Source: a virus
Direction: 5' to 3' (one strand)
DNA: 24,600 nucleotides
Virus record (IMG/VR): IMGVR_UViG_3300023210_000210
Coordinates: 1 to 24,600 of that record
Below the pieces are notes generated by a model. The model ran no database searches. It was not told the DNA's origin and saw only the letters and a program-made list of their open reading frames with translations. The position numbers and the translations under genes are program-made. Numbering within the stretch: the stretch's first letter is position 1; each line of letters begins with the position of its first letter. Positions 7,997-23,671 of the stretch are shown here, piece by piece.

Positions 7997-9472
7997 TTAC
8001 GCTGCTTTGAACAACACAAAGTTGTTAGCCGCTTGTACACATAAACATCTCTCAGATAAGAAATGTACTTGCATTGCATCTAAGTCAGAAGTGTAAGCAC
8101 CACCAACAGAACCAGTGATCCAAGACTTCATTCTTCTATCATCCGCTTCAGAAGCTCTGTAACGAGTGTGTAAGAAAGGTCGTCTAATGTTCTTACCTAA
8201 CATTTGATCGTAAACTGTTGAAGTTCCAGCAGGAACTAAAACACCATCAATGTTATCAACTAGACCTCTTGTAGAAGCATCGTTAAGGTATTTCCAGTCA
8301 GTTTTGTAGAAATCATAAGAACCTCTTCTAAAACCAGAGAATCCAAAATTTAAAGCCATATCAGCTTCATTATTGAATAACCCGTAAGAAACAGCTTGAG
8401 TAGAAGAGTAACCTCCACCAGCTTGAGCACCTATCATGTCATCAAAATCAAGAGCAGTAGATCTAGATAAGAATAACATGTTTTCTTCAATTGCACCTTG
8501 CTTGTCAAGATTCTTAAGAACCTCATCAAAATCGCTAATTGCACCAGCACCAGGAGCTGCAGCACCAGCAAAACCAGCATATACATTTCCTCTTTCTTCG
8601 ATTGCAGCGAATAGACCTTCAGTACCTTTATAGTTGTCACCAATTAAAGATGTACCAGCAGCAGCTAATTCACCTTCTACCATAGCCATTTCAAGGTAAT
8701 CTTCAAATCTTAGTCTTGTTTCAGACTCAGCTTTTAAATACCATAAATAACCAGACGTACCATCTTCAGTTGCAACTTCAACCCAACCAATTTGAGCAGT
8801 GTCAGAACCGTTTATTTGGTACTTGTCTTTTATGATTATTGGAGAGTTATGAAATTGTTTAAAAGTAGGCTCAACAGAACCTTCCATTCCGTTAGTACCT
8901 TTTTTAAACTCAGAACCATAAACAAACATGTCAACAGCAGTTGTTCCAGTAAGACCAGCAGGTAAAGCATCAGCCGCATAACCTTTACATTCAAACTTAA
9001 CTGCAGCAGAAGCTCCATCAGCAACTTCATTACCAGCAGCATCTTCTACTCTAGTAACTAAAACTTTGTAAGTAACTAGTTTAGTAGCACTGTCAACTAA
9101 CAATACTGTTTGGTTTTTTCTAACAGCTATGTTAGTGTTACCAGCAGGTAATGTTGGTGTTACAGTATGTATTGCACCAACCGTAGCAATGTTTCCAGCT
9201 AAACCTTTATATGCAATGTGTAATCTATTTTGTTCAGACCAAATTACTTGATCAGATGTCATTGGCATTTCAGCGCCAACCATTCTTAGGAAACCACCTA
9301 TAGTTCTGTTTCCGTATCTTTCTACTTCAGCTTCATAAAGCTCTGGTAAGTATTGCTGAGCAAATGTACCTCCACCAGCACCATCAAATGCTAAGTAGTT
9401 TGATGATAATGCCATTCTATTTTGAGCTGGCACTATCGATGCAGGAAAACTCCCGCTTGTATTAAATCCCAT
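7997..9472 (-). CDS. Major capsid protein, crAss-like HK97-fold
   Basis: 491 residues. The N-terminal part contains YLPELYEAEVERYGNRTIGG, then FLRMVGAEMPMTSDQVIWSEQ and NRLHIAYKG, which I recognise from major capsid proteins of crAss-like and related marine phages. Residues about 85-215 form a Thr/Val/Ala-rich beta region probably inserted in the HK97 fold. After about residue 215 come a helical segment (RLRFEDYLEMAMVEGELAA) and Ala/Gly-rich loops. The C-terminal part has RRPFLHTRYRASEADDRRMK and SWITGSVGGAY, ending in a hydrophobic strand. There is no obvious N-terminal scaffold fusion. A separate acidic protein upstream probably serves as scaffold. The leader before ATG is A/T-rich (TAAATAAATC). 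A strong hairpin follows the gene, consistent with a very abundant transcript. Confidence 0.9.
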   Translation of the reverse strand: MGFNTSGSFPASIVPAQNRMALSSNYLAFDGAGGGTFAQQYLPELYEAEVERYGNRTIGGFLRMVGAEMPMTSDQVIWSEQNRLHIAYKGLAGNIATVGAIHTVTPTLPAGNTNIAVRKNQTVLLVDSATKLVTYKVLVTRVEDAAGNEVADGASAAVKFECKGYAADALPAGLTGTTAVDMFVYGSEFKKGTNGMEGSVEPTFKQFHNSPIIIKDKYQINGSDTAQIGWVEVATEDGTSGYLWYLKAESETRLRFEDYLEMAMVEGELAAAGTSLIGDNYKGTEGLFAAIEERGNVYAGFAGAAAPGAGAISDFDEVLKNLDKQGAIEENMLFLSRSTALDFDDMIGAQAGGGYSSTQAVSYGLFNNEADMALNFGFSGFRRGSYDFYKTDWKYLNDASTRGLVDNIDGVLVPAGTSTVYDQMLGKNIRRPFLHTRYRASEADDRRMKSWITGSVGGAYTSDLDAMQVHFLSERCLCVQAANNFVLFKAA

Positions 9473-10698: not shown

Positions 10699-13104
10699 TT
10701 ATTTTGGAGCAAATTGCTCTAATCCGAATCCTCCTAGGTTGTCATTACCTGAAGATTCGAAGTTTTTAGGTAATAAATCATTCTTTCTTTGATCTATTAG
10801 TTCACTTTGTTGTGTTGCTTGTATTTTAGTTCTTTTATCTTTTCTGTCTTCTTTAGAATTTTCATTTTGAGTTTTAGCCTGTGATTCTACTTGAGCTAGC
10901 TGCATATTAAATTGAAACTCTAATTCCATCAAACCTTTTTTTATCTCTGCTTCCTGTTGCATTTTCTGTATTGCAAATTGAGACTTACCTTGTTCTATTT
11001 GTAATGTAGTCTCAGCCATAGCTTGATTTTTCTGCAATTCAGCCATTGCTGTTCTTTCAGCTGTCTCTGCTTGAGCTTGAGCTTGAGCTTGGATGTTAGC
11101 TTGTTGAGCAGCTTGATCCTCCTTCATTTTCTTTACTCTTCTTTTCTTTAAAACTTGGTTTGCTAGCTTTATGTTATTTACTTCTCTAACATCAATTGCA
11201 TCTTCTAGATATATTTGACCACCCTGTAAAGCAACTTGTATGTTTTGTTCTAGCATTGCTTTTTCTTCCTCATCTGGCTCTAACTTTAGATATATACCAA
11301 AATCGTGAGTGTTATTATTTATCAACTCTTCTAATGTAGCAACATTATACTTAGATATACTTGATTTAAGAGACTCTCTGGTTAATGGAAACATCAACGC
11401 ATCAGATACTCTCAAAGCTATGTTCTCGCATGTCCTAAGTGTTAAATAAAGTATTGATTGTAGTATATGTCTAGTTGCAGTATTTGAATTAGCTGCAGCT
11501 AGCTTTTGTAATCCTACTAAAGCATGTTTATCCGGTGTACTACCATCTCTAGCTTCATTTAATCCGGTTACATCTCTTATCATTTGTAGATAATACTGAT
11601 AAGTTTGTATTAGCGATTGTATTTTTTGACCACCACTAGATGATTGCAGCTCTTGTATAGGTATTTTACCTCTGTTAGCATCTCCATCTTGAGTTAATGA
11701 TCTACCGATAATACTACCAGTTTGAAAATACATGTTTAAAGCTTCTGCTGGATTGTAATTTGTACCATTACCTAGATCTATTTCAGCTAAACCATCAGCA
11801 TCCACATAAACACCATCAGGAACAACTCTTGATAACACTTGTTGTATTTTCATGTGAGTTAATTGAATCATATCAGCAAAACCTGTTATTCTACTTACTG
11901 TTGACTCAATTCTACCCTTGTACATTTTTGGTGCACATATATTATAATTCATTTTAACCTTTACTGTATCAGCATAAGGTCTTGTCATATTTTCAGCTAG
12001 TTTCCATTCTAACATCTCATCATGACCTAGGATTTTAGCTCCACTATACAAAACTTCTATAGCTCTAAATGACTTATCAAAATTATCATTTTCTGGTGGA
12101 TTAAAAGTATCTGTTTTTTCTATAGACTTTTCTAATCCATTAGCTGTTTGTTTTATTTTCCAAACTTGGTTAGCGTAAGTTTTGTACTCAAAATACAATA
12201 CTTGAATATCGTTGTTATTGTCCCTACCATTCCAATTTCTAGTGTAGTTACTATTTCCAGGATATTTTTGAATTCTTTCTAACTGTTCTGATGTTAAGTG
12301 AGGAAACTGCTTCTTTAATTCTGGTAAACTTATAGACTTAACTTCTCCAACGTAATAAATATCTTCAAAGTTAGGATCTTCGGAATAAGAATATATTAAG
12401 TTAGCTGGATCAACATAATCAACAGTAACACCTTCAGATCTATTAAAACTAGTTTTATCACAAGCAATACCAAGTACTGTTAAATCTTCAGTTAATCTTT
12501 TTCTTACTAGATCATATTTATTGTTATCTAGTACATTGTTTATTAATTCTTCTTCTGCAACTTCAATAGACTGTTTATAATCCATCTGCAAATGCAATGA
12601 TAAATCATCCTCATCCTCTAACTCTAATCCTTTACCACCCTCTTTTGATATATCTAACCCTGTTAATTGTTTAGTTTTTTTAATAAGTTCTTTATGTATC
12701 ATATCCCTATGTAAAGCCTCAGCATATTGAGTTCTTTTAACTAGAGATACAGGATCTTGAGCATAAGCTGTTATTTCATAATTTCTTTGTGACATACCAT
12801 TCACTAGTATATCTACGAATTTAGGTATAATAGGTACAGGTTTCCAATCTAAATTTAAGTAAGATAAATCTCCATTAATGGAAAGCTCATCTTTGTATTT
12901 TTGTACTGATTGTTCACCTCTACTATATAACCTTAATCTGTGGAAGTTATTATAGTTAGTTGAAAATCTATCCCCATTTCTACCAGACCAAAACCATTCT
13001 CCTTCTATAGCTCTACCTACCTGGGTTCCGTACTCAAGTGTTTGTTTCTCTATATCAGGTACCACCTGATCAGGAAATGAACTATTGCTATTAGTATTAA
13101 CCAT
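10699..13104 (-). CDS. Portal protein, crAss-like
   Basis: 801 residues. The segments LRLYSRGEQSVQKYKDEL, LSYLNLDWKPVPIIPKFVD and ILVNGMSQRNYEI (about residues 55-110) are hallmarks I recognise from portal proteins of crAss-like phages. The central part (about 190-560) has mixed alpha/beta portal character, with GRIESTVSRITGFADMIQLT and RDVTGLNEARDGSTPDKHAL. The last 170 residues are a Gln/Ala/Glu-rich helical region with a QAQAQAQAE run at about 667-675, then the tail FESSGNDNLGGFGLEQFAPK. The long C-terminal helix suits the portal barrel that extends into the capsid. The ATG directly follows the TAA of the large terminase, so the two genes are tightly coupled. It forms the dodecameric DNA gate at one capsid vertex. 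Confidence 0.92.
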   Translation of the reverse strand: MVNTNSNSSFPDQVVPDIEKQTLEYGTQVGRAIEGEWFWSGRNGDRFSTNYNNFHRLRLYSRGEQSVQKYKDELSINGDLSYLNLDWKPVPIIPKFVDILVNGMSQRNYEITAYAQDPVSLVKRTQYAEALHRDMIHKELIKKTKQLTGLDISKEGGKGLELEDEDDLSLHLQMDYKQSIEVAEEELINNVLDNNKYDLVRKRLTEDLTVLGIACDKTSFNRSEGVTVDYVDPANLIYSYSEDPNFEDIYYVGEVKSISLPELKKQFPHLTSEQLERIQKYPGNSNYTRNWNGRDNNNDIQVLYFEYKTYANQVWKIKQTANGLEKSIEKTDTFNPPENDNFDKSFRAIEVLYSGAKILGHDEMLEWKLAENMTRPYADTVKVKMNYNICAPKMYKGRIESTVSRITGFADMIQLTHMKIQQVLSRVVPDGVYVDADGLAEIDLGNGTNYNPAEALNMYFQTGSIIGRSLTQDGDANRGKIPIQELQSSSGGQKIQSLIQTYQYYLQMIRDVTGLNEARDGSTPDKHALVGLQKLAAANSNTATRHILQSILYLTLRTCENIALRVSDALMFPLTRESLKSSISKYNVATLEELINNNTHDFGIYLKLEPDEEEKAMLEQNIQVALQGGQIYLEDAIDVREVNNIKLANQVLKKRRVKKMKEDQAAQQANIQAQAQAQAETAERTAMAELQKNQAMAETTLQIEQGKSQFAIQKMQQEAEIKKGLMELEFQFNMQLAQVESQAKTQNENSKEDRKDKRTKIQATQQSELIDQRKNDLLPKNFESSGNDNLGGFGLEQFAPK

Positions 13105-15330
13105 TTATTTTATTATTTTTGAAATACTACCCTCGTTATTATATTTTTTAATACCTAAGTTTACAAACTTTGTTGTTCTTTCAGCTATAGGTTTATACAT
13201 ATTTCTGTTACAACCCATTACTGCTAATCCAGAACTTATAGAAGCATCGTGTTTTGTTCTGTTATTTATATTGAATGTAGCCCAATCTTCTAGAGTTCTT
13301 TGAAAATACATATCACCATAAGAATCCTCACTTAAACCTACATAATTTTCTATATAAGTTTCTATTGCTGCTGCATGAGCTTGTTTAATGTCTTCTGATG
13401 AATTAGGTATGCCACCAATTTCTCTTTCAGTTATTGATAGTTTATTCCAGGTTTTATCTGGTCTATTCATTGAAAAACCTCTATAACCTCTTCTTTTTAA
13501 ATAGTAAAGTAATCTAGGCTTATTATTTTCTGCTAGTATAGGCATCCCATAAAAAACTAACGCCATCAATACATCTTCAAAAAATATTTCAGCAGTTGGC
13601 GGTCTAGATATATACTCTAAGAAAAAGTGATTAGGTGGAGCATCTTCCATACTGTACTTAGTTAAGCCATGTAAAGCTCCGTTAGAACCTCTTTTGTCAA
13701 CTGTTCCTGAAATATCATAACTATCACAACCAAAAGCACCTATGTGCTCGTTTGCTGGGTATTTCACTCCATTCTTTAGTATTACACGATTTTGAAGATT
13801 TTTAGGTGGAATCCATGATATTTTAAATCTACCACCGTTGTTTGGAAGAAAAATAACTCTAGTTTCTTTCACACCATTCTCCCATTGAAAATTACCTGTA
13901 GTTACATTTACAGTATTATTTAACTCTTCATTCCAATCAATTTGCTCGTATATTTTAACTAGATTAAATAAACTTTCTTGAGTTTCGTCTCTAAAAGCAT
14001 GTTTCTCAGTTCTTGGGAATTGTCTGAAAAATTCATTTAAACCATCTTGATCGCTCTTTAAGCCTTCTGCCTCATTATCCCAATATTCTATAACACCTAT
14101 ATGTATTGGTAATCCATCTATACCTTTGACTGGTTTTTTAGGTGTATCAAATACAGGTATACCAAACATATCTATATAACCTTCGTAGTTCCATTCCATA
14201 GGTATAAACAAAGAATACAAACCTGACTTCGTTTGGCCATTCTTATTCCTATTGGTTACATCTGAATTACTATATATGTCTTTAAAGTTTTGCCCTCCTT
14301 TATCTAAAGCATTTGACGTTGAACCCATCATGCACTTACCTATAATTCTTCTACCTAACCTAAGACAAGTTTTAGTAACTTTCCAGTTATTCTTTATATT
14401 GTCAGGTCTTTCCCATTTACCGCTTTCGTCGTGTGCTAACAACTTTAGTTTTTCACCATCGTAGCTGTTGTCTCCAGTGTTCTTCCAGTCAATGGTTGTA
14501 TCTAATCCATCTATCTCCTCTAACTTTTCTCCAGAATCTAATTTCCTTCTTGTTAACTTTGAAGCCGGAACTCTATACGCCAATTCAGTTTTAGGGCGAT
14601 CCATACCATCTTGTATCGGTTTGAAAAAGAACGGATAGTTAACTGATATGGGTACGACTTTATCAGTAAACATTTTCTTTGCATCAGCCCCTGTCTTTGA
14701 TAGTATGCCAAATCTAGAGTCACTTGACATTGTTGCTTGGTTGGTGAGTTCTGCAGAAGCCATAAAGGAAAATCCTGAACGTCTGTTTTTAAGGTAGCAC
14801 ATCCCGTAACACCTTTGATCTGCTTTGCAAGCTTCCCAGAAATAGAAAAATAACTTGTTTGATTCTCTATAATCGGCTGAGCCAACATCAATCTTTGACC
14901 ATTGCAAGTACATGTAGTGAGTACCAGTAATGTAGTTAGGAGTACCATTGTTATAATACCAATAACCTTCTTCTCTGTAATTAAATTCTTTTTCAATATA
15001 GTCAACCCATTTTTCTTTAAACTGTATAGGATATTGGTCCCACTCAAAAGTGCTCTTTATTTTAGTAAGTTCTTTCGGGTAAGGTTGTTTTTCCCAGTAT
15101 TGTTCGCTTTTATCTTCGCTTCGTTTAACCGGTTCATTGATTGCTGGTAAAGCAATGCGGAGGTTTTGTATTTCAATGATCTGTCCAATTTGTCCAGTTT
15201 TACTAATAACAATAAAATCGTAATCGTAATTATAACCGTATTCCCACTTTTTTAGTCTGTTACTTTTTTTTAAAACCTTAGGATTAACAACATCTTTTAT
15301 TATTTTAAATAATGATTGTTGATAACTCAT
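13105..15330 (-). CDS. terL: Terminase large subunit, crAss-like
   Basis: 741 residues: packaging ATPase plus headful nuclease. LKNRRSGFS at residues 180-188 is a deviant Walker A of the type seen in crAss-like terminases. LKLLAHDE at 295-302 is the Walker B with acidic D301 and catalytic E302. GSTSNAL at 336-342 fits the coupling motif. In the C-terminal RNase H-like nuclease, FGCDSYD at 533-539 supplies the first acidic metal ligands and is followed by a conserved-looking KRGSNGALHG. The N-terminal 150 residues hold family-typical YYNNGTPNYITGTHYMYLQW. Its ATG overlaps the preceding stop (ATGA), and the portal gene starts right after its TAA. It acts at the portal vertex to drive DNA into preformed capsids. 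Confidence 0.93.
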   Translation of the reverse strand: MSYQQSLFKIIKDVVNPKVLKKSNRLKKWEYGYNYDYDFIVISKTGQIGQIIEIQNLRIALPAINEPVKRSEDKSEQYWEKQPYPKELTKIKSTFEWDQYPIQFKEKWVDYIEKEFNYREEGYWYYNNGTPNYITGTHYMYLQWSKIDVGSADYRESNKLFFYFWEACKADQRCYGMCYLKNRRSGFSFMASAELTNQATMSSDSRFGILSKTGADAKKMFTDKVVPISVNYPFFFKPIQDGMDRPKTELAYRVPASKLTRRKLDSGEKLEEIDGLDTTIDWKNTGDNSYDGEKLKLLAHDESGKWERPDNIKNNWKVTKTCLRLGRRIIGKCMMGSTSNALDKGGQNFKDIYSNSDVTNRNKNGQTKSGLYSLFIPMEWNYEGYIDMFGIPVFDTPKKPVKGIDGLPIHIGVIEYWDNEAEGLKSDQDGLNEFFRQFPRTEKHAFRDETQESLFNLVKIYEQIDWNEELNNTVNVTTGNFQWENGVKETRVIFLPNNGGRFKISWIPPKNLQNRVILKNGVKYPANEHIGAFGCDSYDISGTVDKRGSNGALHGLTKYSMEDAPPNHFFLEYISRPPTAEIFFEDVLMALVFYGMPILAENNKPRLLYYLKRRGYRGFSMNRPDKTWNKLSITEREIGGIPNSSEDIKQAHAAAIETYIENYVGLSEDSYGDMYFQRTLEDWATFNINNRTKHDASISSGLAVMGCNRNMYKPIAERTTKFVNLGIKKYNNEGSISKIIK

Positions 15331-15605
15331 TTCTTCCTAGTTTCTGGTGATATAGAGAATGATCTCTCAGGTTTGTTTGCTTCCTTTGGTTTATCTTCTA
15401 ACAACGCTTCTTCTTCCTCCATTCTATGGAGTATTTCAAACGCATCAAATATAGCTAGTTTCTTTGTAGCTGCAGCATTTTTTAGTCTATCTGCTGTGAC
15501 ATCATCATCCGTGTTGACTATAGGTTCTTTAGCAACTTTAATCAATTCCTCAACTGCTATTCGCCCAGCTTGGATTATACTCTTTTTCGTTTCCTTCGTA
15601 TTCAT
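15327..15605 (-). CDS. Candidate terminase small subunit (92 aa)
   Basis: 92 residues, almost all helical: SIIQAGRIAVEELIKVAKEP, then TADRLKNAAATKKLAIFDA and an acidic FEILHRMEEEEALLED helix, ending in a short disordered tail. It sits immediately upstream of terL with a 4-base overlap. Small helical proteins in this place are often the DNA-recognition subunit of terminase, but no clear helix-turn-helix can be asserted. The start used is the first in-frame Met and lies 56 bases inside the preceding gene. Starting at the next Met (in the FEILHRM helix) would remove most of the protein, so the long overlap seems real. Function is inferred from size and position. Confidence 0.55.
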   Translation of the reverse strand: MNTKETKKSIIQAGRIAVEELIKVAKEPIVNTDDDVTADRLKNAAATKKLAIFDAFEILHRMEEEEALLEDKPKEANKPERSFSISPETRKK

Positions 15606-16155
15606 GTGTTAGTGCAATATCATTAGATTTCATACAATATAAACGTTCACTACCAAAATAAAACTCAAACTCTGAATTAGGTGTAAACGTTATTAATTCT
15701 CCACTACTTATGCCAATACTTTCAAGTTGTTTATTAGAGTACTTAATAATACCCTTTAGTGGAACTTCTTTTTCTAGACTAAAATCCTTATCATGGATTA
15801 TAGGTTTAACAAAACAATAATCTAAGTTAGTGTTATACTCATCATTGTTTTTATACAAATATATCTGAGTAATATTACAAAAATACATATTATCTTTAAA
15901 ATAAGAACCGCTATTCTTTTCATCACCTCTCATATCGTAGTACCTTCTAAATATGTTGTGATGAACAACAACTTCATCACCTTTTTTAATAGGTGTATTA
16001 TAAGCTTTTGGTGTAGATATGACTATAGCTCTCTTGCTAACGAAGTTGTGGTTTTCAACACTAGTATTAACTATAAGTTCGTTTTCTCCTATTTTTTTAA
16101 CATTTTCATATCTACCATTCAATGGCTTTATTATGAAATTATATAAACCTTGCAT
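15550..16155 (-). CDS. Protein with two tandem GroES-like folds
   Basis: 201 residues with two halves that each follow the order of elements in co-chaperonin GroES. Half one (about 3-102): strand YNFIIKPL, a loop with NELIVNTS that could match the mobile loop, strand KRAIVIST, then PIKKGDEVVVH (compare VKVGDIVIF of GroES) and NMYFCNITQIYLYK at the place of the C-terminal strand. Half two (about 112-185): CFVKPI, KGIIKYSN, ISSGELITFTP, and ERLYCMKSNDIAL, which resembles the EVLIMSESDI ending of GroES. The conserved-looking tail NEKEYNPSW follows. It lies in the packaging operon, far from groEL-groES, and its last 56 bases overlap the next gene. The fold call rests on motif order only; it may be a structural or assembly factor that borrowed the fold rather than a working co-chaperonin. 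Confidence 0.65.
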   Translation of the reverse strand: MQGLYNFIIKPLNGRYENVKKIGENELIVNTSVENHNFVSKRAIVISTPKAYNTPIKKGDEVVVHHNIFRRYYDMRGDEKNSGSYFKDNMYFCNITQIYLYKNNDEYNTNLDYCFVKPIIHDKDFSLEKEVPLKGIIKYSNKQLESIGISSGELITFTPNSEFEFYFGSERLYCMKSNDIALTHEYEGNEKEYNPSWANSS

Positions 16156-16382
16156 TAGTATTCTAAATCGTATTCAACAGATATAGACATATTCTTGTTG
16201 AAGTTTTTCCAAGGTAAAACCTCATTATCTTTTTCAATAAAAATGCTATAAGAACGATCATCATCATTCAAAACTATATTAGCTATAGTATGTCCACCAT
16301 AAACCTGTTGACCAACAGAATAATGCATTGCATCATTTTTGTAATCAGAACCTATGCTAATTTTTCTTATTATAGCTTTCAT
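16155..16382 (-). CDS. Small conserved phage protein, unknown (75 aa)
   Basis: 75 residues. It has beta-strand-like segments (KAIIRKISIG, YSIFIEKDNEVLPWKNF, MSISVEYDLEY) and a GQQVYGGHTIANIVLNDDD stretch that suggests a small beta-barrel. It starts in a TAATG overlap with the previous stop and ends in a second TAATG overlap with the double-GroES gene, so all three are coupled. Similar small proteins occur in marine phage contigs in my recollection, without assigned function. Confidence 0.6.
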   Translation of the reverse strand: MKAIIRKISIGSDYKNDAMHYSVGQQVYGGHTIANIVLNDDDRSYSIFIEKDNEVLPWKNFNKNMSISVEYDLEY

Positions 16383-16923: not shown

Positions 16924-19134
16924 TTAAGGTACGTCTGTCTCTCTATCAACTTCGTCCATATTTAAAGATAAAGCATTTGAAGTGCTATTACTTGCATCTC
17001 CTACCCTGTCCTCTATTGTCATATTATTTGATAAGCCACCACCTGTGTAATTTGGTGCGTTACCTTCTAAATCTGATATTGTCATATTTGCACTTGTTCC
17101 TGTTGCACTTCCTACATTATCAGGAACATTCCAATTAGTGTTAAATGTAGCATCTTCGCCCATTCTCCAATGTGCAGTAGCACCATCTATTCTTGCGGGT
17201 TCTCCACCATTGTAAAGAGTAGTTACTTGTTCTTGAGTTAAAGCGGTAGTACTCCATATTGCTAATTCGTCAATGTTTCCATTATAGAAATCATTTCCGC
17301 CATATCTAGGTGCAGTTGCTATTTTAAAGTCTACTGTTGGGTCATTTACTGAATTACCTGAAAGACTGTCTATCAATGTTTGTGTTAATGTATCTTCAAC
17401 TCCATCTACATAAAATTTAACTCCACTTGCACTTTCTGAGCCATCATAGGTAACCACCACATGATGCCATAACCCATCTACAAAAACTGTTCCCAATCCT
17501 TTTTTCTGTATTGTACCTATGGTAGAGCCTCCCGAGTCCACTCCCACTATCCTAAATTGTAAACGATTTTGTTGAGTACCTGATGTTATAAAACCAATAT
17601 CCCAACCTCTCATTGCATATAGTGGGGCATTTCTTTTTCTTTTCTTTCCCGCAATAGTGTAAATTCTTGTGTGTGATGCAGGAGTTGAAATATTTACCCA
17701 AGCAGATAATGTCATTGGTGTTTGACCATCATTGTGTAAAACATCACCACAATTAATTTCATCGTCCACACCATCAAAAGCAAATGACCTTGTAGAATAG
17801 TTACTTAATGCAGAATTATCAACTAACCAATTATCAGTAAAATAACTTTGTTCACTTCTCCAATATCCAACAGGTGAAAGTGAAGATAAATCGTTGGGAG
17901 TACCTGAATTGTAGATTGTAGTTATATCTGAAGAAGTTAAAGCTGAGTTCCATACTGCAACCTCATCAATGTTTGCACTAGTAAAATAAGTTCCAAGTAA
18001 TGCACCAATTTGGAAATTATTACCTGCCGTAGCACTAAGTGAAGTTGGTACACCACTTAAACTATTAGCAACCTTTACCCCATCAACATACAATATACAC
18101 CTATCAGCTGTAATTATAGAACCATCATATACACCAGCAAAATGATGCCAATTTGTATCGTGAGCTAATGCAAAAGATGCATTACTATAAGCCCCATTTC
18201 TTGGGGAAAAATATACATTACCATCTGACCACCAACTAAGCCAAATACCATTAGTTCCTGTTATCGAAGAACCAACTACTAACTTCTCAGTAGAAATAGG
18301 TTTTTTACCCCAAAAAGAAAAAGTTAAAGCACTTGCAGAATTAATTTGAGTAATAGCACCACAATCTACATAATCGTCAATTCCATCATACTCAAAACTA
18401 TAGTTTGAAAATTTGGTTTTGTTCTCATTGTTAGGGATTAGCCATTGTGGAGATTTCCAAGTTCCGTTATCTCCGTTTCTGTACCAATTAGTTAAACCAG
18501 CTAAAGCACTTAAATCAGTTGGTGTGCCTAAATTATAAATATCTGTAATTTCTAATTGAGTTTTAGCAGTAGTGAAAATTGCCACCTCGTCTAAGTTGCC
18601 AAAAAATTCATTTGTAGTATAGCCCCCAGCTTTTCCTATTTCAGTTGAATTTCCTTTAGAAGTATATAATGAAGTTAAAGCAAAACCTGAAACTGTGTTT
18701 GTTTGTAGTACACCATCTATATAAACTTTAAGTTTGTCTGCGTCACTTACCTCTGTTTCATCATAGACCATAGCAATATGAAACCAAACACCAACAGTAA
18801 AAGTAAAATTTGATGTATTCATTAATCTTAAAGTTCCACTTGAGTCAGCAAGAAAAATATCTATTTTATTAGTAGATTGCTTAAATAAATATTGCTTAAA
18901 ACCTGTTGAGTAACAAGACATCAGATAGTGATAACTTGTAGTAATTGAACTATTAGCCCAAATTGACCAAGTTGCACTAGTTACATTATCTAAAGTAGTT
19001 ACATCACCACAATCTACATAATCGTCAACTCCATCTAATGCTAACGAATAGGTGTTAGTAAAACCGCCACCACCACCTCCTCCTGCGTTTACACGGTTGG
19101 TACCAATCATGTTAAAGTTAGGTAGTATATTCAT
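16924..19134 (-). CDS. Three-repeat LamG / concanavalin-A-like virion adhesin
   Basis: 736 residues. Three copies of a LamG-type jelly-roll domain are clear, each opening with a motif like LDGVDDYVDCGD: about residues 29-205, 244-412 and 448-644. Each also has a strand such as KVYIDGVLQ, LYVDGVK or FYVDGVED, and closes with IDEVAVWN / LDEVAIF / IDELAIW plus an IYN-GTP segment. The N-terminus has seven Gly in a row (about 18-24), a flexible arm. The last 57 residues hold three short repeats: NMTISDLEGNAPN, NMTIEDRVGDASN and NMDEVDRETDVP. LamG domains in phages usually bind polysaccharide, so a host-attachment fibre or a carbohydrate-binding virion decoration is likely. ATG directly follows the stop of the preceding 94-residue gene. 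Confidence 0.88.
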   Translation of the reverse strand: MNILPNFNMIGTNRVNAGGGGGGGFTNTYSLALDGVDDYVDCGDVTTLDNVTSATWSIWANSSITTSYHYLMSCYSTGFKQYLFKQSTNKIDIFLADSSGTLRLMNTSNFTFTVGVWFHIAMVYDETEVSDADKLKVYIDGVLQTNTVSGFALTSLYTSKGNSTEIGKAGGYTTNEFFGNLDEVAIFTTAKTQLEITDIYNLGTPTDLSALAGLTNWYRNGDNGTWKSPQWLIPNNENKTKFSNYSFEYDGIDDYVDCGAITQINSASALTFSFWGKKPISTEKLVVGSSITGTNGIWLSWWSDGNVYFSPRNGAYSNASFALAHDTNWHHFAGVYDGSIITADRCILYVDGVKVANSLSGVPTSLSATAGNNFQIGALLGTYFTSANIDEVAVWNSALTSSDITTIYNSGTPNDLSSLSPVGYWRSEQSYFTDNWLVDNSALSNYSTRSFAFDGVDDEINCGDVLHNDGQTPMTLSAWVNISTPASHTRIYTIAGKKRKRNAPLYAMRGWDIGFITSGTQQNRLQFRIVGVDSGGSTIGTIQKKGLGTVFVDGLWHHVVVTYDGSESASGVKFYVDGVEDTLTQTLIDSLSGNSVNDPTVDFKIATAPRYGGNDFYNGNIDELAIWSTTALTQEQVTTLYNGGEPARIDGATAHWRMGEDATFNTNWNVPDNVGSATGTSANMTISDLEGNAPNYTGGGLSNNMTIEDRVGDASNSTSNALSLNMDEVDRETDVP

Positions 19135-21415: not shown

Positions 21416-21862
21416 TTATCTTGTTTTATCTTTGTTTACATTTTGAATGGACTTAGATAATACTTTATCACTATAACTATTTCCCTTCATAATTCTATTT
21501 GCTCTATTTGTTTCTGGGATGTCTTCATCACCCACTATAATTCGGTATATTCTGCTTATTAACTGTTTGCACTTGAATGAAACTTTATACATGTTGTACT
21601 TCTGAGTAGTCCTGTTCCTATGTCTCCAGACAACTATCCAATCTTCCTTCAATAATCTGTTCCAGCGCCTGTTGTCCCAGCTATAAGAGTATGTACCTAT
21701 TTTAAAATCTTCTATAGTAAAGAAATCTAAAGCATTTAAGTATAATAACAGCTCTAAGTCCGCATCTCTAAGATTACACGTTTTACATGCCCATTTACGT
21801 ATAATACGGTAATGTTTTAAAAAATGCATGTCTTTTAAGTCACCTGCATCTATTTTTTTCAT
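21416..21862 (-). CDS. Winged-helix-like DNA-binding candidate (148 aa)
   Basis: 148 residues. LRDADLELLLYLNALDFFTI (31-50) followed by SYSWDNRRWNRLLKEDWIVV (59-78), a basic turn (RHRNRTTQKYN) and YKVSFKCKQLISRIYRIIVG (92-111) follow the helix-helix-wing-helix order of MarR-like winged helices; WDNRRWNRLLKEDW would be the recognition helix. CKTC at 26-29 is a short Cys pair but no full zinc site is seen. The C-terminal tail is basic and disordered. Its ATG overlaps the groES stop (ATGA), so it is co-transcribed with the chaperonin genes. It may regulate late genes or bind phage DNA, but the DNA-binding role is inferred from pattern only. Confidence 0.55.
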   Translation of the reverse strand: MKKIDAGDLKDMHFLKHYRIIRKWACKTCNLRDADLELLLYLNALDFFTIEDFKIGTYSYSWDNRRWNRLLKEDWIVVWRHRNRTTQKYNMYKVSFKCKQLISRIYRIIVGDEDIPETNRANRIMKGNSYSDKVLSKSIQNVNKDKTR

Positions 21863-22119
21863 AAAACTATTACTATATCACTTTCTTTTATAACCTTGTA
21901 ATCACAATCTTTAATATCAACTTTAAAACCAGCATGTTTGTCATAATATATATTATCACCATTGCTAACTCCTACAACATCAGTTCCTATGTTTATAACT
22001 TCACCTTCTCTATACCTTATGTCTTCTCTAGTCTTCTCTGTTAACTCTAAACCACCACTAGTTACAGTTGCGTTGCTTTTAACCTCTTTTATAACTACGT
22101 ATTTACCTATTGCTTTCAT
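21859..22119 (-). CDS. groES: Phage co-chaperonin GroES
   Basis: 86 residues, shorter than bacterial GroES (97 in E. coli). KYVVIKEV (6-13) is the first strand. TVTSGGLEL (18-26) matches the mobile loop that docks on GroEL, with GLEL in place of the usual GIVL. REGEVINIGTD (37-47) matches the RGEVLAVG strand, VSNGDNIYYDKHAG (51-64) the VGDIVIF segment, and YKVIKESDIVIVL (74-86) the C-terminal strand. The protein caps the GroEL ring during folding. It follows groEL, overlaps it by 17 bases, and overlaps the next gene by 4, so the order groEL-groES is the reverse of bacterial operons. Acidic Glu in the loop may tune affinity to the phage GroEL. Confidence 0.9.
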   Translation of the reverse strand: MKAIGKYVVIKEVKSNATVTSGGLELTEKTREDIRYREGEVINIGTDVVGVSNGDNIYYDKHAGFKVDIKDCDYKVIKESDIVIVL

Positions 22120-23671
22120 CAGTTCTTAAATTATTGATTACACAATCTGTAGATAATATAGTAGTTGCTACTGAAGCCGCATTAAGTAAAGCACTTTTTG
22201 TTACTAATAGAGGATCAATTATTCCAGACTTTACCATATTTACTGTTTTACCTGTAACCACATCTAAACCTCTACCTTTTATTTTTGGTGCTTCGTAGTC
22301 ATTTATACCAGCGTTTTCTAATATTGTTTTATAAGGCGCTTTTATCGCGTCTAACAATACTTGTTCACTTGGGTTTTTTGCTTTAATGCTTTGTGAAGCA
22401 TTTAATAAGGCAATTCCCCCACCTGGGACTATACCTTCTTTTATTGCGGCTTTTGTAGCACAAATAGCATCTTCTACTCTATCTCTCTTTTCTTTTAGCT
22501 CTACATCTGAATTAGCACCAACTTTAACAACAGCTACTTTAGCGTTTAATCTAGCTAACCTTTTTTCATACCTAATTATTAGGTTTGGATTTTTAGTCTC
22601 CTCTATTTTATTTTTTATAGAGTTTACAACGTCTTTAACATCTTCAGGTATTGATTCAAGCTTTAATAACGTGTTTTCTGTACTTGTGATGGATTTTAAG
22701 CATTCTCCTAAATGTTCAGGCTGTATAAGATCCATGTCATCTCCTAAGTCTTCATTTATAACAGTAGCACCAGTAAGTAGAGCAAGATCATTTAGTATTT
22801 CTTTTTTACTTAAGCCGTAAGGTGGTGGATCAATAACATTGACTTTTAAATTGCCTTTTATTTTATTCATAGCTATCATTGCTAAAACCTGAGGCTCTAC
22901 GTCTGCAATAATAAGTATAGGTCTTTTAGCTTTTAAGTCTTTTATAATGTACTCTAATATACCTTGTATTTTTCTTTGATTGTCTACCTTACTTTCGATT
23001 ATTAAAACCAATGGTTTTTCTAATTCCGCATTACCGGTTTCTTGGTTTGTTATAAAGTGAGGGTTTTTCAATACTGAATCATACTGTATGCCTTCTATTT
23101 TTTCAACAATTGTCTCTGATCTTTCGTGTGTTTCCATCATTACGATACCTGTTTCATTAACCTGATTAAAAGCCTCAGCAATAGTTTCACCTAAGCTGTT
23201 GTCATTATTGGCTGATATTGTAGCAACTTGTTTTATTACCTCTCCTTTAACTTGTGAGGAAGAGTTTTCTAAGTATTTAACTACTTTTTCTACAGCCGAA
23301 TTTATACCGTTTTTAAGATCTCTAACATTAATGTTTTTATTTGATTCAGACATTGCTTGATTTAATATTGAGTGAGCAAGAACTGTTGCTGTAGTTGTTC
23401 CATCACCAGCTTCTTTAACAGTTTTTCTAGCTGCTTCTTTCAATAACTTAGAACCCATGTTTTCTACTGGATCTAACAAAACAACACTGTTAGCAACAGT
23501 TACACCATCTTTTGTTATCTGTGGATTACCCATGTTATCTTCTAGTATAACACATTTACCACCAGCCCCAAGTGTGGAACTAACTGCTTTAGTTAGTTTA
23601 TCTATACCACCTAATATTTTACTCTTAGCATCCTCTCCAAAATTGAGGTGCTTTACTATTGATTCATTCAT
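22103..23671 (-). CDS. groEL: Phage chaperonin GroEL
   Basis: 522 residues. The ATPase site looks intact: KDGVTVA (54-60) with Asp55, GDGTTTATVLA (89-99) with Asp90, GGG at 417-419, and RVEDA (398-402) with Asp401, matching E. coli D52, D87 and D398. The usual GPKGRNV segment is changed to GAGGKCV (35-41). In the apical client-binding face, the DRGYLSPYF of E. coli is DSVLKNPHF here (198-206), so two tyrosines are lost. The C-terminus stops at NNLRTDESNR and lacks the GGM-repeat tail. It would form the folding ring for phage proteins, perhaps capsid or fibres. The leader is a run of pentamers with no Shine-Dalgarno. Family certain; whether it works with its own groES or the host's is not known. 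Confidence 0.95.
   Translation of the reverse strand: MNESIVKHLNFGEDAKSKILGGIDKLTKAVSSTLGAGGKCVILEDNMGNPQITKDGVTVANSVVLLDPVENMGSKLLKEAARKTVKEAGDGTTTATVLAHSILNQAMSESNKNINVRDLKNGINSAVEKVVKYLENSSSQVKGEVIKQVATISANNDNSLGETIAEAFNQVNETGIVMMETHERSETIVEKIEGIQYDSVLKNPHFITNQETGNAELEKPLVLIIESKVDNQRKIQGILEYIIKDLKAKRPILIIADVEPQVLAMIAMNKIKGNLKVNVIDPPPYGLSKKEILNDLALLTGATVINEDLGDDMDLIQPEHLGECLKSITSTENTLLKLESIPEDVKDVVNSIKNKIEETKNPNLIIRYEKRLARLNAKVAVVKVGANSDVELKEKRDRVEDAICATKAAIKEGIVPGGGIALLNASQSIKAKNPSEQVLLDAIKAPYKTILENAGINDYEAPKIKGRGLDVVTGKTVNMVKSGIIDPLLVTKSALLNAASVATTILSTDCVINNLRTDESNR

Follow-up and report, generated by a model that had tools for sequence, protein, structure and literature searches.

The window is the whole stretch of DNA analysed here, 24,600 bases from a virus record, and presumably represents a fragment of a larger phage genome. 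Its minus strand carries a run of genes in the order 75-aa ORF, tandem GroES-like protein, 92-aa ORF, terminase large subunit and portal protein, and a single-domain groES and a groEL are encoded on the same strand (Table 1). The tandem gene is read from ATG through stop (16155..15550) and specifies 201 residues, in which a sequence-only reading had recognised the order of GroES elements twice; all of the motifs it quoted are present there in that order. The virion structural protein encoded in the window is probably the major capsid protein, and is a candidate folding client of the chaperonin.

Table 1. Features of the window discussed in the text, with the evidence or remarks for each.
Feature	Coordinates	Strand	Evidence or remark
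Virion structural protein	7997..9472	-	phrog_13704, E 1.3e-92
Portal protein	10699..13104	-	phrog_6547, E 2e-144
Terminase large subunit	13105..15330	-	phrog_6681, E 1.5e-162
92-aa ORF between tandem gene and terminase	15327..15605	-	function unassigned
Tandem GroES-like protein, 201 aa	15550..16155	-	ORF, phrog_13932, AF2 model
C-terminal tail and stop	15550..15597	-	not in the four isolate/GenBank relatives aligned; overlaps start of next ORF
Second GroES-like domain, residues 107-186	15598..15837	-	hhalign, structure match on residues 100-187; mobile-loop region short in window clade
First GroES-like domain, residues 1-106	15838..16155	-	hhalign, structure of residues 1-107 alone
Putative GroEL-binding mobile loop, approximately residues 12-39	16039..16122	-	triplet conservation, low model confidence
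Hydrophobic triplet L27-I28-V29	16069-16077	-	conserved in 236 sequences
75-aa ORF directly upstream of tandem gene	16155..16382	-	overlaps tandem start by one base
Single-domain GroES, 86 aa, candidate ring partner	21859..22119	-	Pfam Cpn10, 8.3e-13
GroEL, 522 aa, candidate chamber	22103..23671	-	Pfam Cpn60, 1.1e-58

A Pfam scan of the window tandem protein alone returned no matches. The protein is recognised by PHROG 13932, "co-chaperonin GroES" (E 7.8e-20, residues 1-180 on profile positions 1-195 of 200). Since the name of this PHROG derives from annotation, we sought independent evidence for two GroES domains. When 34 members of the tandem family were each scanned alone (E up to 1), PHROG 13932 matched all 34, the single-domain GroES family PHROG 3188 matched 15 (best 7.5e-7), and Pfam Cpn10 (PF00166) matched 13 (best 2e-6). 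All Cpn10 matches found inside tandem genes in searches of genomes fall within the second half of the protein, which exceeds the curated Cpn10 cut-off in phages phi18:3, phi13:2, phi19:3, phi46:3, phi38:1 and Calle and in the L248 and L249 records.

We then compared each half separately, using profiles cut from a 70-row alignment, with a target of 50 single-domain rows comprising phage sequences, some of them duplicated, and E. coli GroES. Alignment A2 does not contain four of the 73 cluster representatives (L079, L080, L139 and L147). The profile of the first half (residues 1-106) obtained an hhalign score of 32.5 bits (E 1.6e-5) in a match spanning only residues 1-63, and that of the second half (residues 107-186) obtained 38.6 bits (E 4e-7) over nearly its full length. 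The highest scores among 100 column shuffles per half were 17.4 and 18.2, respectively, and reversed profiles scored 9.7 and 12.7. In a search covering three sequences, the single-domain HMM matched both halves of the phi18:3 tandem, with E-values of 1.3e-4 and 7.5e-8. Compared with each other, the half profiles gave no significant match (13 columns, E 0.018), and a recent duplication therefore cannot be claimed as the origin of the fusion. Searches of the PDB were too weak for sequence matches to solved structures to be counted as evidence: phmmer with the single window protein found nothing (best E 0.54, 7dvf), and with the tandem family profile GroES reached only E 0.76. Taken together, the scans of family members and both half profiles indicate that Cpn10-type sequence homology holds for the window family, and the window protein is almost certainly a homologue of Cpn10 with two domains in one chain. 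Of the four isolate/GenBank relatives (alignment A1), three have a chain that stops at the last strand, which is also where GroES ends. The window clade differs from these phrog_13932 relatives in carrying an additional conserved C-terminal tail, HEYEGNEKEYNPSWA, encoded at 15550-15605, where the next ORF starts; because the coding regions overlap here by 56 nt, conservation of the tail may partly reflect the overlapping gene.

An AlphaFold2 model of the tandem protein built from 70 sequences has a mean pLDDT of 84.9 and a pTM of 0.78. Confidence drops at residues 21-40, the candidate mobile loop, and in the C-terminal tail; within residues 1-106 the lowest values (blocks 68 and 60) fall on the putative loop. 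The best PDB match to the full model is chain R of 7ekq (Foldseek E 6.6e-5; VIA Z 9.9, rmsd 3.9 over 158 residues, model residues 1-185, 11% identity). Single-domain co-chaperonins follow with Z of 9.2 to 6.7 on model residues 100-187, the first of them tied with 7ekq. When residues 1-107 were modelled alone (pLDDT 84.5), the first 16 VIA rows were all co-chaperonins (Z 8.6 to 5.9, rmsd 1.8 to 5.7), followed by an oxidoreductase at Z 5.0; the best Foldseek E-value for this half was only 6.7e-3. In a viral structure library the top named match to the tandem was cpn10 of Cellulophaga phage phi18:3 (TM 0.73). The predicted structures thus place a GroES beta-barrel fold in both halves, with Z up to 8.6 for the first and 9.2 for the second. 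As a Z below 8 is weak on its own, the case for the fold leans on the top rows belonging to a single family and on the sequence profiles. The earlier claim of two GroES-like domains in one chain is upheld by half profiles scoring above their shuffles and by structure matches for both halves, the first modelled alone and the second within the full-length model.

The PDB listing title of 7ekq names only CrClpP-S2c. From the chain lengths and the available text of PMC8889267, which describes a CPN11/CPN20/CPN23 heterotetramer seated on the Chlamydomonas ClpP core, we infer that chains P, Q and R are these three co-chaperonins; the best whole-chain fold match would then be Cpn20. That the top match comes from a ClpP entry, and that a title cited in PMC8889267 speaks of ClpP inhibition, raises the idea that the phage protein caps a different ring of seven-fold symmetry, for example host ClpP, and so shields phage proteins from proteolysis. 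We regard this as highly improbable, as the 7ekq match probably reflects a shared tandem fold, the best single-domain GroES scores on a par with it (Z 9.2 vs 9.9), and a phage GroEL accompanies the tandem in 26 of 33 long records.

Relatives of the tandem protein were found in 77 phage records (68 from Flavobacterium phages, seven from Cellulophaga phages, Maribacter phage Panino and one uncultured genome), and a more distant form in eight further Cellulophaga records representing four phages. The isolated relatives infect Bacteroidetes. Three IMG/VR scans, whose sets may overlap and from each of which 80 were kept, confirmed the tandem in 238, at least 586 and 540 stretches; the Panino tandem used as query in viral_contigs found no relatives. 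The 31 tandem loci in genome_contigs, 30 of them in records titled MAG and one in a bin, are presumed to be misbinned phage contigs, and on this presumption we set aside the reading of the tandem as a host gene. One tandem locus (L308, CP070801.1) lies within a 1.05-Mb record titled as an Aenigmatarchaeota chromosome. The relatives in phrog_13932, among them gp089 of Cellulophaga phage phi38:1, the proteins of the elemo phages and Panino and, more distantly, phi18:3 gp096, resemble the window protein in their two-domain length and in the position of their gene directly upstream of the terminase. Several of these records label the product co-chaperonin GroES or cpn10, and annotation of the gene as GroES/cpn10 is thus already known.

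The two halves differ in the region corresponding to the mobile loop. We examined the first half in 236 sequences: the window, Panino and 234 of 253 loci, those with a start methionine near the expected place; the phi18:3 group was excluded. Position 27 is L, F, I, V or M in all 236, position 28 is I, V or L in 233, and position 29 is V, I, L or F in 217 and T in the remaining 19. We interpret these positions as the triplet through which a mobile loop would bind GroEL, and take IVL to be its counterpart in GroES. The corresponding stretch of phi18:3, TESGLEL, is close to canonical mobile loops. In the second half, segment 118-135 is only 18 aa long in 131/131 window-clade sequences, and no mobile loop with a hydrophobic triplet was recognised there. 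The matching segment measures 20 aa in 80/80 MW202828-type sequences, 18-19 aa in 20/20 elemo-type sequences and 19 aa in Panino. It reaches 28-29 aa in 4/4 Callevirus-type sequences, two of which contain GSIIV. Compared with the Callevirus type, the second loop is probably reduced in the window clade.

The gene order around the tandem is strongly conserved. The tandem was present in 253 loci, and in all 220 of those with at least 1.5 kb of downstream sequence a terminase frame starts no more than 900 nt downstream, within 600 nt in 182 and at 606-876 nt in 38. In the reverse search, starting from the terminase, 61 of 80 loci had at least 1 kb upstream, and all 61 have the tandem there, although some of these are contigs already in the tandem set. 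The sequence-only reading had placed the protein next to terminase instead of groEL, and the relatives keep this arrangement. The 92-aa ORF has a relative in all 81 sequences scanned (80 loci and the window), and its product is possibly the small terminase. In the elemo phages, phi38:1 and Panino the tandem is followed immediately by an annotated terminase that is approximately 135 aa longer; we considered whether the 92-aa ORF has been fused into these longer terminases and rejected this, as no homology was detected (best E 0.057). The 75-aa ORF has a relative in 80 of the same 81 sequences. It also shows a match to a Pfam MjAgo_N-like domain below the cut-off (6.4e-4, 20.7 bits vs 27).

Such a fixed position next to terminase favours another reading, in which a protein with the GroES fold is devoted to packaging or capsid assembly and acts on terminase or portal rather than on GroEL. 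The position would also suit a chaperone for late proteins, and the conserved mobile-loop-like triplet of the first half argues against such a factor. In addition, phi18:3 gp096 lacks the note of virion MS/MS detection carried by twelve other genes of its record, although the absence of such a note is weak evidence. According to the available text of PMC13288928 (2026), phi38:1 GroEL is among the methylated proteins of free virions, indicating that chaperonin traces can occur in virions. We consider a packaging factor unlikely. Of the two functions originally suggested for the protein, the co-chaperonin fits better, given the triplet and the single groES present in 31 of 33 long records; a role in the capsid or in packaging is left mainly with gene position.

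In order to identify possible partners, we determined which records with a tandem also encode a single-domain groES and a GroEL. Among the 27 contigs longer than 40 kb, GroEL is present in 24 and single groES in 25 at the curated cut-off. Two contigs, G019 and G049, have neither; they may be incomplete upstream of the tandem, since only 9.2 and 5.9 kb, respectively, are available there. In a third (G053, L248, 72.8 kb) single groES is present and GroEL was not found. Together with MW202828 and Panino, which encode both, and Cellulophaga phages phi18:3, phi13:2, phi19:3 and phi46:3, which have tandem and single groES with GroEL undetected, these make up 33 long tandem-bearing records, with single groES in 31 and GroEL in 26. 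Presumably, the phages without their own GroEL (L248/G053 and the four Cellulophaga phages) use that of the host. In the overlapping set of 41 contigs longer than 10 kb, GroEL occurs in 20, and of the 21 misses 14 have less than 5 kb upstream of the tandem and seven have 5.0-9.2 kb. The single groES is encoded away from the tandem, and its sequences are diverse. In Panino it lies near groEL (L087:829-1110) and is annotated as hypothetical, the GroES label having been placed on the tandem; the available text of the Panino paper (PMC11590407) mentions only GroEL and GroES homologs. According to that of PMC5332604, GroEL homologs occur in 36 genomes belonging to the group of phi38:1, and that of PMC8776804 lists a cpn10 among the core genes of the family Pervagoviridae without specifying which of the two cpn10 genes it refers to. 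As the sequence-only reading had counted, the window phage encodes three Cpn10-like domains, two in the tandem and one in the true single groES.

The simplest interpretation of the tandem is a two-domain co-chaperonin, and we think it likely that it is a lid of the GroEL type. To fit two-domain subunits onto a chamber of seven-fold symmetry, either a mixed ring or a symmetry mismatch is needed. The retention of single groES even without a phage GroEL favours the former and, provided that the protein is a lid, we lean towards a mixed ring. The co-occurrence of the two genes could also be explained by common inheritance. In the mechanism that we propose, three tandem chains and one single-domain GroES would form a seven-domain ring, similar to chloroplast Cpn20/Cpn10, which would cap the phage GroEL, or host GroEL in relatives without their own. 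Virion and packaging proteins, for example the major capsid protein, would fold inside the capped chamber, although these clients are guesses. The first half would supply the GroEL-binding mobile loop and the second would mainly occupy ring positions; because the loop of the second half is short, such a lid would present about four binding loops to seven GroEL subunits. For the complete proposal, a tandem co-chaperonin that shares a seven-domain lid with the single GroES (three tandem chains plus one single-domain chain) and caps GroEL for phage proteins, we see an even chance.

There is precedent for both kinds of lid among organellar proteins. According to the available text of PMC5780408 and PMC3542282, chloroplast Cpn10 and Cpn20 make functional seven-domain hetero-oligomers. 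PMC3542282 also reports, in its available text, that Pf-cpn20 works alone in E. coli and that At-cpn20 is a functional tetramer, and PMC5780408 that concatamers of six to eight domains function with GroEL. These latter observations would be consistent with a lid made of the tandem only, in which three or four chains close into a ring of six or eight domains with a symmetry mismatch on GroEL, and the single GroES assembles as a separate heptamer that serves other clients; the tandem gene adjoining terminase while single groES lies elsewhere fits this as well. Such a ring would have only three or four binding loops, given the short loop of the second half, and single groES is kept beside the tandem even in phages lacking GroEL. 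We therefore consider a tandem-only lid fairly unlikely.

Returning to the mixed ring, the window protein shares with chloroplast and apicoplast Cpn20 the head-to-tail arrangement of two GroES domains per chain, and the available literature describes plant Cpn20 as accompanied by a single-domain Cpn10, as the window phage is by a single-domain GroES. The two differ in that the window protein is phage-encoded and only 11% identical to the plastid-type chain in the aligned structure; the fusion may have a separate origin. In addition, Pf-cpn20 keeps mobile loops in both halves (available text of PMC3542282), in contrast to the short second-half segment of the window protein. For this reason we liken the tandem to Cpn20 in its probable manner of working and do not class it as Cpn20. 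T4 gp31 is likewise a phage-encoded co-chaperonin with the GroES fold (1g31, Z 6.8 and 6.7), but it is a single-domain homo-heptamer needed for the capsid protein gp23 (available text of PMC6318259), and by analogy offers a known example of a phage lid that serves a late protein. The family scans did not place the tandem with gp31, as only one of the 34 members matched phrog_931 (E 0.096), which we take to be the gp31 family. A further possibility, which we regard as rather doubtful, is that these phages arrived independently at the chloroplast solution: an asymmetric mixed lid with short-looped half-domains, made together with the terminase operon for oversized late proteins such as capsid and terminase.

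Tandem GroES proteins of phages were not described in the literature searched, mostly outside subscription journals, and the available text of PMC7077304 mentions chaperonins nowhere. The two-domain architecture in phages, its usual single-domain partner and the reduced second loop thus appear to be undescribed there. For the tandem GroES proteins of plastids and apicoplasts, the way in which a lid with an even domain count fits a chamber of seven-fold symmetry has been debated (available text of PMC5780408 and PMC3542282). The phage tandem, which spans hundreds of viral contig stretches as well as isolated phages of Cellulophaga, Maribacter and Flavobacterium, would offer a simple bacterial system for testing mixed lids and loop number. 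It would also connect the packaging operon of a large group of phages with a chaperonin lid.

The GroEL encoded in the window was compared with that of E. coli at residues that we take to matter for function. It retains D52, D87, T89-T91, D398, G414 and G415 as well as the apical residues F204, L237, L259 and N265, and has the apical changes Y199L, Y203H, L234Q, V263A and V264M. It also carries E461N, S463D, V464Y and A109K, at positions that are presumably ring-ring contacts, and as judged from these substitutions it could be a single-ring chaperonin. Elsewhere in the window, a 736-aa protein (16924-19134) contains three stretches matching the concanavalin A-like/laminin G family and may be a virion protein that binds the host or glycans.
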